NCBI GenBank assembly: GCA_018240285.1
Contig: JAFEGA010000015.1
Coordinates: 1 to 64,000 of the forward strand
DNA length: 64,000 nt
DNA from: Pseudomonadota bacterium
GTDB taxonomy: Bacteria; Pseudomonadota; Gammaproteobacteria; Burkholderiales; Nitrosomonadaceae
Direction of reading: 5' to 3'
Under the pieces are notes generated by a model. That model was not told the DNA's origin and did not search any database. It saw nothing but the letters and a program-made list of their open reading frames with translations. The position numbers and the translations under genes were made by a program. Positions 15,109-55,999 of the stretch are shown one piece after another. Positions within the stretch are counted from its first letter, which is position 1. Each line of letters opens with the position of its first letter.

Positions 15109-15208
15109 ATCAGCTACTGAAAATTTGAAATCCTGTATTGTATTTAATTACATGTCAAAATATTGTCAAGGCTCTAGACTAGCAGAGACAATCTGTTAAT
15201 CCAGCAGG

Positions 15209-15958
15209 ATGCTAAGAAACAGCAAATTAAAGTATGGAAAAATAATTCAATGCCTTAGCATTGATATACCAGCCAATAAAGCAACCCTGCTGTTAGATAA
15301 AAATCGTAACACGATTAATCGTTGGTATGGCATTTTCAGGCAAGTAATATATCGCCATCAGCCCCCCATCAAAGACAAGTTGTTGGGTAGAGTGGAAGTT
15401 GATGAAAGCTCTATTTTTGCGCGAAACGGCATCGTGGTTATCATGGCAAACTCAAGCGCGGACGGGGCACATTAAAATAACCCGTATTTGGTGTATTTGA
15501 GCGAGATGGCAGGGTATACACCGAAATAGTACCGGACTGTAAACGCTTGACTTTACAAGCAGTGATATTGGGTAAGGTATCCATTGAAAGTGTCATTTAT
15601 AGTGACATAATGGTTTGGTAGACGTAGGGAAACGCTGATTAATTGGCTGCACGAGCGAATCGCTTCGTTGTGCGGTACTCACGCTCTCGTCTATCTTGTT
15701 GATATGTCGCGGTTGCTGTGTTCCGTGTGCCTATCGCTTCGCTCGTTCGCCGAATTAATCAGCATTTCCGTAGGATACTCCAAGCATTTTCGTGTATCCC
15801 ATGGTGATAATGAATTTGCTCGTGAAGGGTATTGCCATATTAATGGCATCGAATCGTTCTGGAGCTTTACCAAGCGGCGGCTTGCAAAGTTTAACGGTGT
15901 GTCAGTTAATTTTAAGCTGCATTTAAAAGAATCAGTGGCGCTAGAAAAAACATCCTGA
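15209..15958 (+). pseudogene. IS1595-family transposase, broken
   Basis: The N-terminal frame runs 15209-15475 (88 codons) and ends at a frameshift. A middle piece reads in another frame to about 15620. After the MITE-like insertion the C-terminal piece continues from about 15774 to 15958. Motifs VEVDES and GIESFWSFTKRRL identify the family. No functional transposase can be made. Confidence 0.75.
15628..15769. repeat. MITE-like insertion with terminal inverted repeats
   Basis: A 142-base insert inside the IS1595 transposase. Its left end GGAAACGCTGATTAATT and right end (reverse complement GGAAATGCTGATTAATT) form imperfect inverted repeats of about 35 bases. It is flanked by the 4-base direct repeat GTAG (15624-15627 and 15770-15773), and removing it restores the transposase context. 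It has no coding capacity of its own, so a transposase supplied in trans is expected. Confidence 0.75.
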
Positions 15959-16022
15959 TGAGCTTGCCAGTGAATTATGGCAACTCATCAGATTTTATTA
16001 ATCTCTCTGCTGGTCTAGAGCC

Positions 16023-16084
16023 TATTATTACGAGCAGGACTTGGTGTGATTGCCGTTGCTCGTCGGAGATATAAAGCATCATAA
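16023..16084 (+). pseudogene. PEP-CTERM sorting-signal remnant (3' end of a lost gene)
   Basis: Immediately after the right end of IS1595 copy B, an open frame reads LLLRAGLGVIAVARRRYKAS and a stop at 16082-16084. A hydrophobic glycine-rich helix followed by an Arg cluster is the end of a PEP-CTERM domain, the exosortase sorting signal. The PEP motif and the rest of the gene are missing, displaced by the insertion. A strong terminator follows at 16108, as expected for the end of a real gene. Confidence 0.6.
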
Positions 16085-16107
16085 TTGGCGCACAAAGGAT
16101 TTTAGTA

Positions 16108-44462: not shown

Positions 44463-45977
44463 TTATTTTTCTTTTTCTTCTTCCTCGACGAGCGCTTTCA
44501 TCTGTTTCAGGCGCGCTTCGATGCTCGACAGTTGATAAAAATTGCCATTATCGCTTTGCAGCGCGATTTTCAATTGATCCGCGGCGGCTTTGAAGTGATT
44601 CTTGAGAAAATACACTTCCGCCAGCGCGCGATGCTCGAGCATTTTGTTACCAAGCAGCGAATAACATTGCGCCTGCAAGTTGTACAGTTTCGGGTCGTTC
44701 TGAATCGCTTGCAGCAGTTGGTTGATAAATTCCAACGCAGTTTCGGTTTGCTTGTTTTGTATCAGCGCATTGGCATAGCCGTGGATCAGCGCGCGGTACT
44801 GCGGATACACCTTCAGTGCGGTTTTGTAGGTCGTGAAGGCTTCGGCGGTTTTGCCGTTGGCCAGCTTCACACTGGCGGATAATGTTTCGATCATCGCACC
44901 GGCGATGATATTTTTATGTTCAACCCGAATGGTTTTTCCCAACGGGTGATCCGTCAGAACCGCGGATTGCGAATCGCCGTGCAGCAGTTGATATAGATGC
45001 GCCAGCTCGGCATCTGCCTGCTTGTATTTTTTATTGCGCAACAGTGCATGGATATAACCGTAGCGCTCAACCGCCTCATTCGCATAGCGCTTCTCATCCA
45101 AACGGGTTTTGAATTGCACCACGGCATCATGCGGTTTACCCTGGAATGCGCGCAACTTGGCGCGCACCAGCAAAAAATCGATGCTGTCGGGGACCTGTCG
45201 GTAAGGCATTTCGCGCGTGCGGTTCTGGATGTCCGCGATACGTTCATACGTGATCGGGTGGGTGCGCAAGTAGGAGGGCGCGCCATTTTCATGAAAACGT
45301 CCGGATTTTTGCAAGCGCTCAAAGAAAGTGGTCATTCCTTGCGGATCGAATCCGGCGTCCAACAGGATATTCAGACCGATCCGGTCGGCTTCCTTTTCGT
45401 GATTGCGGGTGAAGTCCAGCTTCGATTGGATCATGCTGGCTTGCGAAGCAATCAAAACTGCTTGGCTGGCCTGCGGATTGTTGGAGCGCGCGGCGACAAT
45501 CGCCACGGCCAGCGCGGCCAGCGATTTGACCAGATCGAATTTTTGCGACGCGATCATGCGCGCCAAGTGTTTCTGTGTCACATGCGCAATTTCATGCGCC
45601 ATCACCGCCGCCAATTCGGATTCGCTTTGCGCAGCAATAATCAATCCGCTATTGAACCCCATGAATCCGCCCGGCAAAGCAAACGCATTGATCGACGGAT
45701 CCTCCACCGCGAAAAACTCAAATAACTGATTCGCATCGGCCTCGTCGGAATTGACGATCAGGCGATGGCCAAGATTGCTGAGATAACTGGCAATCTCCGG
45801 ATCATCCATATAACTCGGATCGGCACGGATTTGCCGCATGATTTTCAAACCAAGCTGGCGTTCTTCATGCGCCGATATGGTGGCGCGCGACACATCGCCC
45901 AGGTTGGGTAGTTCGTGCGCCAAAGTATTCGCGGGAAATGCAAAGGACAACGCAATGATCAAGCAGATTAATCTCAT
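44463..45977 (-). CDS. M48-family periplasmic metalloprotease (BepA-like) with TPR repeats
   Basis: 504 residues. A signal peptide (about 1-20, LICLIIALSFAFPANTLA) is followed by an M48 protease domain with the zinc motif AHEIAHVTQKH (His128, Glu129, His132). TPR repeats occupy the second half. BepA-type proteins take part in outer-membrane protein and LPS-export assembly and quality control. The frame opens at TTG 45983; ATG 45977 gives a clean signal peptide, so I chose it. The gene stands 75 bases from macA on the same strand. Confidence 0.88.
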   Translation of the reverse strand: MRLICLIIALSFAFPANTLAHELPNLGDVSRATISAHEERQLGLKIMRQIRADPSYMDDPEIASYLSNLGHRLIVNSDEADANQLFEFFAVEDPSINAFALPGGFMGFNSGLIIAAQSESELAAVMAHEIAHVTQKHLARMIASQKFDLVKSLAALAVAIVAARSNNPQASQAVLIASQASMIQSKLDFTRNHEKEADRIGLNILLDAGFDPQGMTTFFERLQKSGRFHENGAPSYLRTHPITYERIADIQNRTREMPYRQVPDSIDFLLVRAKLRAFQGKPHDAVVQFKTRLDEKRYANEAVERYGYIHALLRNKKYKQADAELAHLYQLLHGDSQSAVLTDHPLGKTIRVEHKNIIAGAMIETLSASVKLANGKTAEAFTTYKTALKVYPQYRALIHGYANALIQNKQTETALEFINQLLQAIQNDPKLYNLQAQCYSLLGNKMLEHRALAEVYFLKNHFKAAADQLKIALQSDNGNFYQLSSIEARLKQMKALVEEEEKEK

Positions 45978-46239
45978 GTACAAAACTGACAGCAGATGGA
46001 TAGCGAAACCGGTGATTTCCGGGTTGGATTGACCGGCTGAGCTTTGGTTTCTTGCAGATGGGGATTATTTTTTACGATTTCCACAGATTGATCGGGTGTT
46101 CCTAACTCTGGTCTATATGGCGTTTTATGATGTGCTAAAAACATTCTTGTGTTCAATGCGGTACTGTATAAGCAATCTCGGTGTTGTTGACAGGGAGATT
46201 GATTGAAATAAGTGGCGAGTATTTCATAGGGAATGGCAT
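45978..46239. other. Intergenic stretch with no recognised gene
   Basis: Between bepA and the IS427-type remnant I find no convincing gene. A minus-strand frame reads through, but it resembles nothing I recognise. Confidence 0.4.
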
Positions 46240-46619
46240 TATTCAAACATTCGCTGTATAGCCCTTGCCCGCACGGTTTTTACCAATATTGTGATTGCTG
46301 ACCTGCCGCTCCAGCACTGTGCTGATGCTAACAAAGCTGCCCCATTAATAAATTCCTATTCCCAATCCAGATCAATGGTCAATGCCTTGAAAGTCCTTAA
46401 CCATTTGCTGCTTAATGACCACGCATTGAATCTTTTGCAGATAGAATTCCAGCAGCCGAACGCTGCCGGCAAATCCCGCCATAGGCAACCAATCCGCACT
46501 CGATACAGCATACCTTCTACCGTCAGGTGCAGATTACGCTTGTTATAAATCATCGTCTCTTGAAGCAGAATCTTCTTCAGTTTCGGCCAGAACTCATCAT
46601 TGAGCATCAATCGGGGCAT
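46240..46619 (-). pseudogene. IS5-family (IS427 group) transposase remnant
   Basis: Minus-strand frame from ATG 46619: MPRLMLNDEFWPKLKKILLQ, then YNKRNLHLTVEGMLYRVRIG and DLPAAFGCWNSICKRFNAW, the N-terminal domain of IS427-type transposases. It ends at a stop at 46356. Beyond it, HQHSAGAAGQQSQ appears in another frame, the usual next segment. The catalytic part is lost. It appears to have inserted into a PEP-CTERM gene whose tail lies to its right. Confidence 0.72.
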
Positions 46620-46739
46620 CGCAAACCCGTTTTGTTGGAGATGCGGGAACCTCAATGTTACGAGTTTGCTTCTTTCTATTAAAATGCTTATCTCTAAATG
46701 TCTACAGACCATAGGAATCTTGCAATTTGTACGCGCATA

Positions 46740-46848
46740 GTCACTGCAGTTGCAGAGCCTGGAATATATGCCATGCTTAGCAGGGTTAGGGATTATTGGC
46801 GGTGCAAGGGTATTGCTAAAGTTTAATGGAGAGATGACGTTAAAATGA
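46740..46848 (+). pseudogene. PEP-CTERM sorting-signal remnant (plus strand)
   Basis: The frame ending near 46778 reads RIVTAVAEPGIYAML, which contains the PEP-type motif (here AEP) and the start of the helix. A frameshift follows, and the next frame (46777 onward) reads LAGLGIIGGARVLLKFNG to a stop at 46846-46848. Together they make a PEP-CTERM domain: motif, hydrophobic helix, basic end. The upstream gene is lost to the IS427-type remnant. A strong terminator lies at 46891. Confidence 0.55.
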
Positions 46849-46890
46849 CCGTAGTTGTAGTATTAATTAATCCTTTATCTGAGACCAGAC

Positions 46891-46925
46891 CCCGTAGAGC
46901 AGTTAACGTTCTACGGGTTTTTTTT
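46891..46925 (+). terminator. Rho-independent terminator
   Basis: CCCGTAGA (46891-46898) pairs with TCTACGGG (46910-46917), followed by eight T. It fits the end of the lost PEP-CTERM gene on the plus strand, 43 bases after its stop. Confidence 0.8.
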
Positions 46926-46990
46926 ATTGTTAACAATAACGAGAGCTTAGGCTCCCGTTCAGAATCAAATCAAAGTAATTGCATTGCTGT

Positions 46991-47312
46991 TTATTTTTTG
47001 CGGCACGCCGAGAATCCCAACAACTCCATTCCTGCTAGACCCATGGCGTAAGTTAATGGTTCTGGAATTGTTGCTGCCGCTTGAGGAAGAAAAACAGAGC
47101 CCCCGAGATCCGCATCCTTGAAAACCAATTACGAAAAATTGATTATCCCTCGCGATGGCTGAAAAATCATTGTCATTGGTTAATATAAGCGTATGGTAAA
47201 TTTCTACTCTACGATTACATCATTGCCAAAAGCCACGCCCTCTAGCTTGGCCGGGATTTTTGCATCAGTAATTCGGCTCGTATTTGGCAATGTTCTGATG
47301 TCAAGGGATAAT
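46991..47312 (-). pseudogene. Degenerate PEP-CTERM protein with esterase-like-phytase C-terminus
   Basis: Three minus-strand frames, read in order: DIRTLPNTSRITDAKIPAKL with EGVAFGNDVIVE (47312-47203); HTLILTNDNDFSAIARDNQF with FVIGF; and KDADLGGSVFLPQ followed by IPEPLTYAMGLAGMELLGFS and ACRKK, stop at 46991-46993. The last piece is a full PEP-CTERM signal. The earlier pieces resemble the C-terminal part of esterase-like phytase proteins, where LEGVAFG and NDNDF recur. Two frameshifts and the missing N-terminus make it a fossil. Confidence 0.6.
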
Positions 47313-47394
47313 TGCCAAGATTAAAAAGGTAGCGAGTGATGGTCAGACAAAGCGGAATTAGGCGAAAAAGCGCGATTTACGAGCAGTAAATGAG

Positions 47395-47457
47395 CATTTC
47401 GAGCCTGACTTCAACGCAGCATGGTTAAGCGCAGCAGTTTTTCAGAGCTTTCCTGGC
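47395..47457 (+). repeat. Dispersed repeat, copy 1
   Basis: A 63-base stretch resembles 55937-55999 with scattered differences; shared blocks include GCATG, AAGCGCA and AGTTTTTCAGAG. Neither copy lies inside a gene. Its origin is unknown. Confidence 0.6.
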
Positions 47458-47552
47458 TGGGGGAGTCTTAAGTGGTTGAGTTGCCTTACACCGGTTGGTC
47501 TTATTAGGAAATTTTTTTTCCAACTCAATGGAGGAGTGCTTTTAACCGGTAT

Positions 47553-47759
47553 TCATTTATCCGAGTCTGTGTTTTTTTCCTTTTCCTTACTATCGGGGAT
47601 AACAGCGTCGGCAATAGCGCCAACAGCTTTAACAGTGACCTTGACTGCCGTCGCAGCGGTAGTGACAGCGGCATCGGCGATTGCCAAGACGGCGCATCCT
47701 GTCAATTGAGCTAGGAGTAGTAATACTGTAAGTAATCTGAAAATAGAAAATATAGACAT
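47553..47759 (-). CDS. Small predicted lipoprotein
   Basis: 68 residues: a signal peptide with a lipobox LTGC (Cys22), then an Ala- and Val-rich stretch (AVLAIADAAVTTAATAVKV), and a charged acidic-lysine tail. I recall such short Ala-rich lipoproteins as a group of unknown function. It probably sits in a membrane facing the periplasm. It is an isolated gene in a mobile-element graveyard. Confidence 0.7.
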   Translation of the reverse strand: MSIFSIFRLLTVLLLLAQLTGCAVLAIADAAVTTAATAVKVTVKAVGAIADAVIPDSKEKEKNTDSDK

Positions 47760-47867
47760 GGAATGATGCCGTTAGGAATGGTAGAAAAAGGAAATCGAGG
47801 CAATCGGAATATATTCGTAACACACATTCTATTAATTTTATACTCCTATCCTTTTTATTTATGAAGA

Positions 47868-48341
47868 TTGCCCGGTCAGATTTGGCGCATGAATGAGTGT
47901 GGCGCTCACCATGGCGCCTTTGGAAACCAACAACTTCCCGCGCTTTGAGGTGAGCATTGACCGCTTCTAGCAATATCACTGTCAATTCGTGACGTTCCAA
48001 AAGATGACGGAAGTTCAGTATCGTGGTTTCGTCCGGCAGAGCACCGGTAACCCCGCCAAATCCCGCAAAGCGGCGCATACTCTCGATCTCGTACAGGGCA
48101 CCTTCCATCTGCCGGTCGGAGAGGTTGAACCAGTTCTGCAGGCAGTAGATGCGGAACATGCTCCAAAGCCGCCATCGGCTGACGGCCCCACCGTCCACTC
48201 TTGGGGTAATGCGGTTCTATGTGCAACGGCAACACTTGCCAGGGTATCCACCCTTTCCATCTCGCTTAAGAAAACTTCCCGGCGCATCCGGCGTTTCTTG
48301 TGATCGTAGTCTAGGTCGGCAAAGCTTGATGGGTGTGACAT
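47868..48341 (-). pseudogene. IS5-family transposase, N-terminal remnant
   Basis: Minus-strand frames read DLDYDHKKRRMRREVFLSEM (from 48341), VLPLHIEPHYPKSGRWGRQP, LQNWFNLSDRQMEGALYEIE, and ILNFRHLLERHELTVILLEA, then VSKGAMVSATLIHAPN to about 47868. This is the first half of an IS5-type transposase. Frameshifts split it, and the catalytic part is missing. Confidence 0.8.
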
Positions 48342-48547
48342 AGCGTATTAAGAAGTTGTCAGAAAGGTCATTATCTCAATTTTTGGGATTTGTTCGGCGA
48401 TTCCTTAAAGAAGGAAGGATGACTGAGAATCCGCTTGTGATAAGTATGCACCGTTGCAAATCACTAAGGCGGCATTGCCACGGATATCGCTGACGGTGCA
48501 ATTGATTTGGGCAACTGCGATGCGCACGACGCGGCAAGCCACTCAGA
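48342..48547. other. Short stretch without recognised gene
   Basis: About 200 bases between the IS5 remnant and the phosphomannomutase stop. I find no coding or clear regulatory signal. Confidence 0.4.
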
Positions 48548-49924
48548 CTAGAACGGCAGTTGCGCGTCCGGTTTTGCTTGCAGTATATTGCGGCGGAAAT
48601 CTTCCTGGATGCGTTGCAGCGCGGCTTGATTATCGGCTTCAAAGCGCAGCACGACGACCGGTGTGGTATTAGAAGCGCGCGCCAGGCCGAAGCCATCGCG
48701 GTACTCAACGCGCAAACCGTCGGTGGTGATGACTTGTTGCGGATTATCGAACTTGGCGCTTTTCTGCAATTGCGCGATCAGCGTGTGATTTTCGCCTTCG
48801 GCTGTACGCACCTGTAATTCCGGCGTGTTGAGACTATCGGGGAGATTTTTTAGCGTGGCGGTGATGTCTTGTTCGCGGCTCAGCAGCTCCAGCAAGCGTG
48901 CCCCGGCGTATAAGCCGTCGTCGAAACCGTACCAGCGTTCCTTAAAGAACAGGTGCCCGCTCATTTCCCCGGCCAATAATGCCTTTTCTTCGATGAGCTT
49001 GGATTTGATGAATGAGTGTCCGGTTTTCCACATCACCGGCGTGCCGCCGTGTTGGCTGATCCACGGCGCCAGATTGCGCGTGCATTTCACGTCGAAAATG
49101 ATTTTTCCGCCGGGATTGCGCGACAGCACGTCGGCGGCGAACAGCATCAGTTGGCGGTCAGCGTTGATGATATGACCATCCTTGGTGACGATGCCGAGCC
49201 GGTCGCCGTCGCCGTCGAATGCCAAGCCGATTTCTGCGTCGCTCGTTTTTAGCGCTTGAATGACATCATTCAGATTATCGGGCACGGAAGGATCGGGGTG
49301 GTGGTTGGGAAAAGAACCATCCACGTCGCAGAACAATTCGGTTACTTGGCAACCCAAGCCGCGATAGAGCGCCGGTGCATAAGCACCTGCTACGCCGTTG
49401 CCGCAATCGACCACGATTTTGATCGGACGCGTGAGCTTGATATCGCCGGTAATCCGCTGCAAGTAGGTTGCGGTGATGTTGTGCTCGGAATAATTGCCTG
49501 CACCCTGTGTCAGATCGTTGTTTTCAATGCGCAGGCGCAGCGCCTGGATGGTGTCGGCCGCCAGCGTCTGGCCACCCAGTACGATCTTAAAACCATTGTA
49601 TTCGGGCGGATTGTGGCTGCCGGTGACCATCACGCCGGAATATTGACATAATTCGTGCGCGGCGAAGTACAACATGGGGGTCGCCACCATGCCGACATCC
49701 ACGACATCGATGCCGCTTTTGCGGATGCCGCGTGCCAGCGCTTGCGATAATTCCGGTCCGGATAACCGGCCGTCACGGCCGATGGCGATGGCGGTCAGAT
49801 TCCTAGCGCGTGCTTCGGAGCCGATGGCATGACCGATTTTTTCGACATTTTCCGCAGTGATGGTTTTACCGACAATGCCGCGAATGTCGTAGGCTTTGAA
49901 AATTTCGTGAGGAATGGTTGGCAT
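48548..49924 (-). CDS. Phosphomannomutase/phosphoglucomutase
   Basis: Alpha-D-phosphohexomutase of 458 residues, AlgC/ManB type, converting mannose-6-P or glucose-6-P to the 1-phosphate for surface polysaccharide. The phosphoserine loop VTGSHNPPEYNGFK is near residue 100, the metal-binding AFDGDGDRLG near 240, the sugar-specificity GEMSGHLFF near 320, and the C-terminal RFEADN. The start ATG 49924 gives the usual IFKAYDIRG motif at the N-terminus. The neighbours do not identify the pathway. Confidence 0.93.
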   Translation of the reverse strand: MPTIPHEIFKAYDIRGIVGKTITAENVEKIGHAIGSEARARNLTAIAIGRDGRLSGPELSQALARGIRKSGIDVVDVGMVATPMLYFAAHELCQYSGVMVTGSHNPPEYNGFKIVLGGQTLAADTIQALRLRIENNDLTQGAGNYSEHNITATYLQRITGDIKLTRPIKIVVDCGNGVAGAYAPALYRGLGCQVTELFCDVDGSFPNHHPDPSVPDNLNDVIQALKTSDAEIGLAFDGDGDRLGIVTKDGHIINADRQLMLFAADVLSRNPGGKIIFDVKCTRNLAPWISQHGGTPVMWKTGHSFIKSKLIEEKALLAGEMSGHLFFKERWYGFDDGLYAGARLLELLSREQDITATLKNLPDSLNTPELQVRTAEGENHTLIAQLQKSAKFDNPQQVITTDGLRVEYRDGFGLARASNTTPVVVLRFEADNQAALQRIQEDFRRNILQAKPDAQLPF

Positions 49925-55936: not shown

Positions 55937-55999
55937 CATTTTGAATTTGATTTCAATGCCGCATGATCAAGCGCAATAGTTTTTCAGAGTTTCTCTGGA
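55937..55999 (+). repeat. Dispersed repeat, copy 2
   Basis: Resembles 47395-47457, sharing the blocks GCATG, AAGCGCA and AGTTTTTCAGAG. It lies in the 200-base gap between the class II aldolase and the HD-GYP gene. Confidence 0.6.

Follow-up and report, generated by a model that had tools for sequence, protein, structure and literature searches.

Remnants of a probable facing PEP-CTERM gene pair in the nadE2 scar of a Nitrosomonas genome

Two decayed PEP-CTERM gene ends that face each other in a Nitrosomonas genome (G000) are probably the 3′ ends of one convergent gene pair, stranded in the scar of nadE2, a gene whose loss was likely permitted by a second NAD synthetase, NadE1, the predicted substitute. 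As PEP-CTERM fossils, the two remnants represent ordinary decay; the informative part is the place in which they lie. The scar likely reflects a displacement in which a NadE1-class NAD synthetase took over from a NadE2-class one.

The window analysed here spans positions 1 to 64,000 of contig C6, which is 106,498 bases long, and the remnants lie well inside the contig. The genome has a size of 2.97 Mb in 48 contigs and is 99.98% complete. Among the named matches listed for the phosphomannomutase/phosphoglucomutase (PGM) protein of the window, that of Nitrosomonas oligotropha Nm75 is the closest (93%). Genus-wide searches covered 85 Nitrosomonas genomes, G000 included. The features of the region are given in Table 1.

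Table 1. Features in and around the interval between the M48 and PGM genes (window coordinates)
Feature	Position	Strand	Evidence and remarks
M48 metallopeptidase with TPRs, intact, left border	44463..45983	-	PF01435 E 1e-34; likely ATG 45978
IS-end fragment	46157..46251	-	82% over 83 bp to L298 6371-6453; matches elsewhere
IS fragment A, DUF4096, IS4/5 type	46316..46721	-	PF13340 E 8.5e-15; 83% over 406 bp to C21:18365-18766
PEP-CTERM gene tail, one frameshift	46727..46830	+	profile 41.8 bits; PEP reads AEP; facing counterpart in G059
Terminator-like hairpin, CCCGTAGAGCAGTTAACGTTCTACGGG+T8	46891..46917	+	between both remnants
Phytase PEP-CTERM gene 3′ end	46988..47314	-	about codons 366-473 of 476-aa query; stops, frameshifts
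PEP-CTERM motif of phytase remnant	46997-47071	-	PF07589 22.8 bits, Pfam cut-off 20.7
MITE-like repeat	47323..47465	.	left terminal repeat ruined; abuts phytase remnant end
IS fragment B, DUF772 transposase part	47866..48407	-	PF05598 E 3.6e-16 on ORF 47629-48198; 87% over 543 bp to C21:19471-20011
nadE2 relic, codons 103-119	48401..48451	-	tblastn with G059 NadE2 E 3e-4; relatives' DNA matches 48398-48448
nadE2 relic, about codons 1-20	48468..48527	-	tblastn E 1e-9 (codons 1-34); 86% over 59 bp to G003
PGM, intact, right border	48548..49924	-	Pfam PGM_PMM domains; gene order in relatives

Two facing PEP-CTERM remnants

Both strands of the window were scanned, with frameshifts allowed, using a profile of 26 positions derived from 20 tails of other genes in G000. 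The minus-strand tail, ending at 47000, ranks first with 46.4 bits, and the plus-strand tail, ending at 46800, ranks second with 41.8 bits; the third place in the 64 kb has 20.1 bits, and the maximum in 40 random first-order Markov windows was 23.4. The two remnants described in an earlier sequence-only reading of the window, which had proposed such a frameshift-aware search, are thus the two best places in the window, and both tails were recovered above all 40 random windows.

The minus remnant contains a PEP motif, a hydrophobic helix and a basic cluster with a short basic end (ACRKK); in the genome-wide search, its tail scored 21.9 bits, the weakest of 36 matches. A tblastn search with phytase-like proteins of relatives gave one alignment, from 47314 to 46994. 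The remnant corresponds to residues 372–478 of 482-aa proteins with 54% identity (G022, E 1e-28; G020, E 1e-27), and the G022 protein carries both PF13449 and PF07589. The earlier description of a PEP signal together with pieces of an esterase-like-phytase gene agrees with this identity and with the PF07589 match above the cut-off. An intact full-length frame is absent; what is left is the last 107 codons or so, with four stops (one TAG and three TAA), and the remnant is a pseudogene of the family rather than a member protein. PF13449 has no match anywhere in G000, where only the 3′ part aligned by tblastn survives, and a DNA search of this genome found neither the 5′ part of the phytase gene nor the gene that lies upstream of it in G059.

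The plus remnant had been read as split by a frameshift, and VTAVAEPGIYAML and AGLGIIGGARVL do lie in two different frames; neither single frame has a Pfam match, and the tail is found only if a frameshift is allowed. The terminator that had been ascribed to it is present as a hairpin followed by T8. The stretch contains two terminator-like sites against a mean of 2.8 in shuffles, so the shuffles are not poorer in such sites. Pfam, tblastn and the frameshift-tolerant profile together support the decay of two PEP-CTERM genes, of which that on the minus strand is phytase-like.

A third decayed PEP-CTERM gene, claimed at 16 kb, was not confirmed: only LLRAGLGVIAVARRRYKAS is in frame there, with no PEP motif. 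With 13.3 bits ungapped, it is outside the ten best places (the tenth has 15.6 bits), and it was rejected as a certain fossil because it is too short to exceed chance in the profile. An IS-like element, recognised by eye at 15182–16086, immediately precedes this possible tail. A palindromic dispersed sequence starting with GGGAAACGCTGATTAATT, also found by eye, occurs at 15623–15775 of the window and at about 8280–8358 of L302, at the phytase-relic break of G016.

The DNA of the phytase remnant is 81% identical to that of G059 over 321 bp; the flanking stretches have 88–90% identity. The remnant and G059 differ at 19, 14 and 31 sites in codon positions 1, 2 and 3, respectively (107–108 sites each); when G059 is compared with the intact copies in G022, G020, G053 and G054, the corresponding numbers are 11–14, 3–5 and 41–50. 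The second-position difference is 13% between the remnant and G059 versus 1.9–6.5% in ten pairs of five intact copies, and the third-position difference, 29%, is below that between G059 and the four other intact copies (38–46%). Judging from this pattern of codon-position differences, selective constraint on the phytase remnant appears to be gone.

The phytase gene was surveyed in the 85 genomes by scoring at most 19 matches per genome, and weaker pieces may be missed. It is near full length in six genomes (G020, G022, G053, G054, G059 and G064) and in pieces in five of the 11 with a clear piece (G000, G016, G063, G071 and G087). In both G063 and G087, Mutator-type transposase genes sit in the break or directly at it; G087 has a second element there, of the integrase-core type. 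The breaks in G071 and G016 may be assembly effects, since the former borders unread bases (N) and the latter is 97 bases from a contig end. The proposed hot spot for IS insertion into PEP-CTERM genes is supported for the phytase gene itself, given its five broken copies and the transposase genes at two breaks; for PEP-CTERM genes in general it would be a conjecture.

The genome of G059 is a single contig, and in it the phytase gene has a PEP-CTERM tail on the plus strand pointing towards it. The distance from the tail end to the phytase stop is about 192 bp in the window; in G059 it is 195 bp, measured from reference bases that are offset by about one position. Because the facing tail of G059 has nearly the same spacing, the two remnants are very probably one inherited pair, derived from an ancestor shared with G059, and a single convergent pair implies one history rather than two. 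G059 is the only one of nine relatives with a phytase 3′ end to show a facing tail within 1.5 kb; none was found within this distance in the eight others (best 11.6–16.4 bits). Positions 46750–47311 of the window form one continuous alignment with G059 (69% over 587 columns). The plus-side alignment score was reached by none of 1000 shuffles and none of 1000 random pieces of relatives, and that of the intergenic part alone by five of 1000 shuffles and one of 1000 random segments.

Sequence similarity alone was rejected as a basis for the pair, since paralogous tails of G000 score equally well. For the plus tail alone, G059 scores 24, and at least five of 35 other PEP-CTERM 3′ ends of G000 score 25–29; for the tail with the intergenic part, G059 has 31 versus a best of 29 among these 35, and for the intergenic part alone 17 versus a best of 18 among 35 flanks. 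The claim of a pair therefore rests on position and spacing. Two unrelated PEP-CTERM fossils, each moved separately by IS elements, might have met by chance, as the IS fragments on both sides and the similarity of the plus tail to its paralogues would allow; however, the facing arrangement recurs in G059 at nearly the same spacing, and by arithmetic (49 tails in 3.28 Mb) chance would set a facing tail no more than 400 bp from any one gene in about 0.3% of cases, which makes such a meeting improbable.

The facing gene of G059 has a DUF4114-like stretch before the tail, in another frame (20.5 bits, cut-off 27). It contains a frameshift, and its first 98 codons or so were not found, so this gene is also broken. 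Contig C31 of G063 carries a 218-aa gene with DUF4114 (38.7 bits) and a PEP-CTERM motif of 18.4 bits, below the cut-off. The plus remnant in the window begins 3′ of any DUF4114 region.

The interval between the M48 and PGM genes

The usual gene order in relatives is PGM–nadE2–M48, all on the same strand and in most cases preceded by ilvE. It is contiguous in 14 of the 20 relatives examined, nine of these 14 being G007, G020, G016, G010, G008 (where M48 lies in two frames), G013, G012, G022 and G001; the same order is given by coordinates on short contigs in G004, G014 and G015, and G059 and G063 also have it. In G006, G024 and G002, nadE2 follows PGM, and in G060 it lies by PGM, with the M48 side outside the examined stretch in all four. 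The contig of G003 ends inside nadE2, and in G011 PGM adjoins M48 without nadE2.

In G000, the gap between the intact M48 and PGM genes is 2.5 kb. Its contents, from left to right, are an IS end, IS fragment A, the PEP-CTERM pair, a MITE, a small ORF, IS fragment B and scraps of nadE2. The M48 DNA is 90% identical to that of G059 up to 45978, where similarity stops, and similarity resumes at 48430. The scraps show residual homology to nadE2 at the orthologous place between PGM and M48, as expected of a pseudogene. An internal deletion separates the relic of codons 1–20 from codon 103. In the alignments, IS fragment B, which ends at 48407, runs about seven bases into the relic of codons 103–119.

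A large rearrangement that broke nadE2 was considered and rejected: roughly 4 kb compared per side is collinear with G059, and local replacement is preferred because both flanks stay collinear. The scar may also be a mis-assembly.

The IS end belongs to the same element family as the one splitting the phytase gene of G087, which has an integrase-core transposase there (rve_3, E 5e-17 in L298:6386-6856); the window piece itself has no Pfam match. IS fragment A has its right end at about 46717, just before the plus tail, and similarity to L003 and to L091 stops at 46714 and 46717, respectively. The small ORF (47553–47759, minus strand, 68 aa) is lipoprotein-like, with no family above the Pfam cut-off. 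On contig C21 (L258 1716-2145), 3′ relics of nadE2 (codons 461–531, 81%) and of PGM are neighbours with their order swapped, an arrangement that lies outside the preferred account; these relics adjoin an intact PEP-CTERM gene, with copies of both IS fragments further on.

MITEs are short non-autonomous DNA transposons. Full copies of the family represented in the scar are about 146 bp long and have the terminal inverted repeat TTAAGGAAGCTCTGAAAAA (30-row alignment); TA is seen by eye at the ends of many copies. At least 38 other matches occur in G000 (best 40 of 71 candidates scored), including 55937–55998 and L010–L038. The family is thus short and multi-copy with terminal inverted repeats, and the window copy is without a clear left repeat. 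Copies were also observed in the relatives' loci L131, L299, L094 and L104. Outside C6, two of 37 MITEs are within 300 bp of a tail versus 0.3 expected (p 0.04) and four of 37 within 1.5 kb versus 1.4 expected (p 0.05), an expectation computed with 38 matches; targeting of PEP-CTERM genes by MITEs is not claimed, because the comparison is post hoc and the preference for intergenic DNA uncontrolled. A literature search on Nitrosomonas with miniature inverted-repeat found only an integron review.

NAD synthetase classes in Nitrosomonas

NadE searches of G000 found a single complete NAD synthetase, a protein of 688–710 aa encoded on C7. It is closest to 3dla (E 2e-231), which we take to be the M. 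tuberculosis NAD synthetase, and is therefore on the NadE1 side. For the lost enzyme, the G007 orthologue served as query and has its best match in 4f4h (E 4e-174), presumably B. thailandensis NadE, which places it on the NadE2 side. PMC7196632 assigns the M. tuberculosis enzyme to an octameric NadE1 group and that of B. thailandensis to a dimeric NadE2 group; in its account, NAD inhibits NadE2 and PII lifts this inhibition. Gene neighbourhoods suggest that NadE1 might also be PII-regulated, which is a prediction in that paper. Since a second NAD synthetase is present in G000, nadE2 was likely dispensable.

Among the 85 genomes, 56 have NadE2 only, 14 have both enzymes, 13 have NadE1 only and two have neither. 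Full NadE1 occurs in 27 genomes and NadE2 in 70, the latter including G047 and G072, with NadE2 in two pieces, and G003, where it is cut by the contig end. NadE1 is present in 13 of the 15 genomes without intact NadE2 versus 14 of the 70 with NadE2 (Fisher p 2e-6, the genomes being related and kinship uncorrected). No full NadE1 or NadE2 was found in G076 (98% complete) and G062 (85%), and because of these two genomes a loss of nadE2 without NadE1 may be conceivable.

In a tree of all 27 NadE1 proteins, G000 groups with G059, G063 and G060, which all have both enzymes; support is 97/94 for G000 with G059 and G063, and 100/99 with G060 added. The state needs 4–5 changes on this tree, which is a gene tree rather than a species tree and shows that the state changed, not in which direction. 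Synteny of the NadE1 locus extends across G000, G059 and G063; in G060 it is limited to the gene itself. As the neighbours in the tree have both enzymes and the locus is syntenic, redundancy of NadE1 and NadE2 most likely preceded the loss of nadE2. Alternatively, nadE2 was lost by an IS-driven accident, and NadE1 was gained later or is coincidental. The two genomes without either full enzyme and the contact of IS fragment B with the nadE2 relic would fit such an accident, but it has little probability in view of the nearest NadE1-tree relatives, which have both enzymes, two with NadE1 at the same locus, and of the uneven occurrence of NadE1 in genomes without and with intact NadE2.

A decayed NadE1 accompanies an intact NadE2 in G051 (C61:104269-105267), which is the reverse outcome. 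Short NadE1-like pieces with 54–56% identity, possibly relics, are located at G044:C1:117047-117157 and G080:C116:2-145, in two genomes without full NadE1.

With redundancy preceding the loss, NadE1 would have made nadE2 dispensable, and IS B and deletions would then have destroyed it. A piece of the PEP-CTERM pair may have been brought into the scar by IS or MITE activity or by recombination, and IS A and the MITE, which flank it left and right, may show the limits to which it was cut back; no donor place for the pair was found. The remnants would yield no surface protein, and the terminator between them may at most still act. It is also conceivable, if rather unlikely, that parallel NadE2 losses (the 4–5 state changes) uncouple NAD synthesis from PII nitrogen sensing and that the vacated site catches IS debris and surface-gene fragments; the possible PII regulation of NadE1 suggested in PMC7196632 speaks against this.

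Because genomes with NadE2 only, with both enzymes and with NadE1 only, as well as the decayed NadE1 of G051, occur within one genus, Nitrosomonas offers a natural series in which gene displacement can be tested. The series also bears on whether ammonia oxidisers give up PII control of NAD synthesis. Literature searches on NAD synthetase with horizontal gene transfer and gene displacement, and on Nitrosomonas with nonorthologous gene displacement, found no reports in the mostly non-subscription literature covered.

The PEP-CTERM system and comparison with known systems

G000 has one exosortase gene, which is full (C9:13947-14714, PF09721 E 6e-67), and 33 of its 36 PEP-CTERM tails lie in open frames at least 138 codons long. 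The sequence-only reading had proposed this count and the exosortase search, together with a past expansion and later loss of an exosortase-sorted protein set; loss of the whole set in G000 is not supported, given the exosortase gene and the tails in frame. The expansion draws weak support from the number of tails, which is 35–53 in 12 of the 85 genomes, G000 among them, and 0–26 in the other 73; the near relative G063 (88% complete), with only 21 tails, speaks against it.

All ten tail-free genomes of the 85 are also without an exosortase match, so loss of the whole system may happen in the genus. Nine further genomes without an exosortase match have 1–19 tails; G008 (97% complete) has 19. 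The whole PEP-CTERM system is absent from G042, G043, G011, G018 and G089 and from five genomes of lower completeness. Selective shedding of exosortase-sorted surface proteins, with the remnants as first casualties, would accord with the tail-free genomes and with the broken phytase gene in five of 11 carriers, but the full exosortase gene and the 33 tails in long frames make it highly improbable for G000. Stranding of a convergent pair in the nadE2 scar is preferred.

Literature searches on PEP-CTERM with Nitrosomonas, pseudogenes or insertion sequences found nothing on decayed PEP-CTERM genes in Nitrosomonas (titles and abstract starts, with subscription journals largely outside), and a search linking PEP-CTERM with esterase-like activity of phytase found none.

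The PEP-CTERM/exosortase (EpsH) sorting system is described in PMC1569441. The minus remnant shares with it the PEP motif, the hydrophobic stretch and the basic C-terminal end, and an exosortase gene is present in the genome; in contrast to that system, both window genes are truncated pseudogenes, and the plus tail carries a frameshift, with AEP in place of PEP. Compared with the Nitrosomonas esterase-like-phytase PEP-CTERM protein (PF13449 and PF07589), the 3′ end of the remnant is homologous over about 107 codons, whereas the first 366 codons or so are missing and four stops are present. The repeat beside it resembles known MITEs in being short (about 146 bp), in its terminal inverted repeats and high copy number and in the TA at the ends of many copies, and differs in the ruined left end of the window copy. 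The main text of PMC7196632, which defines the NadE1Gln and NadE2Gln classes, does not contain the word Nitrosomonas. With respect to these classes, the kept enzyme of G000 is on the NadE1 side and the lost enzyme on the NadE2 side, the latter being represented here by relics.
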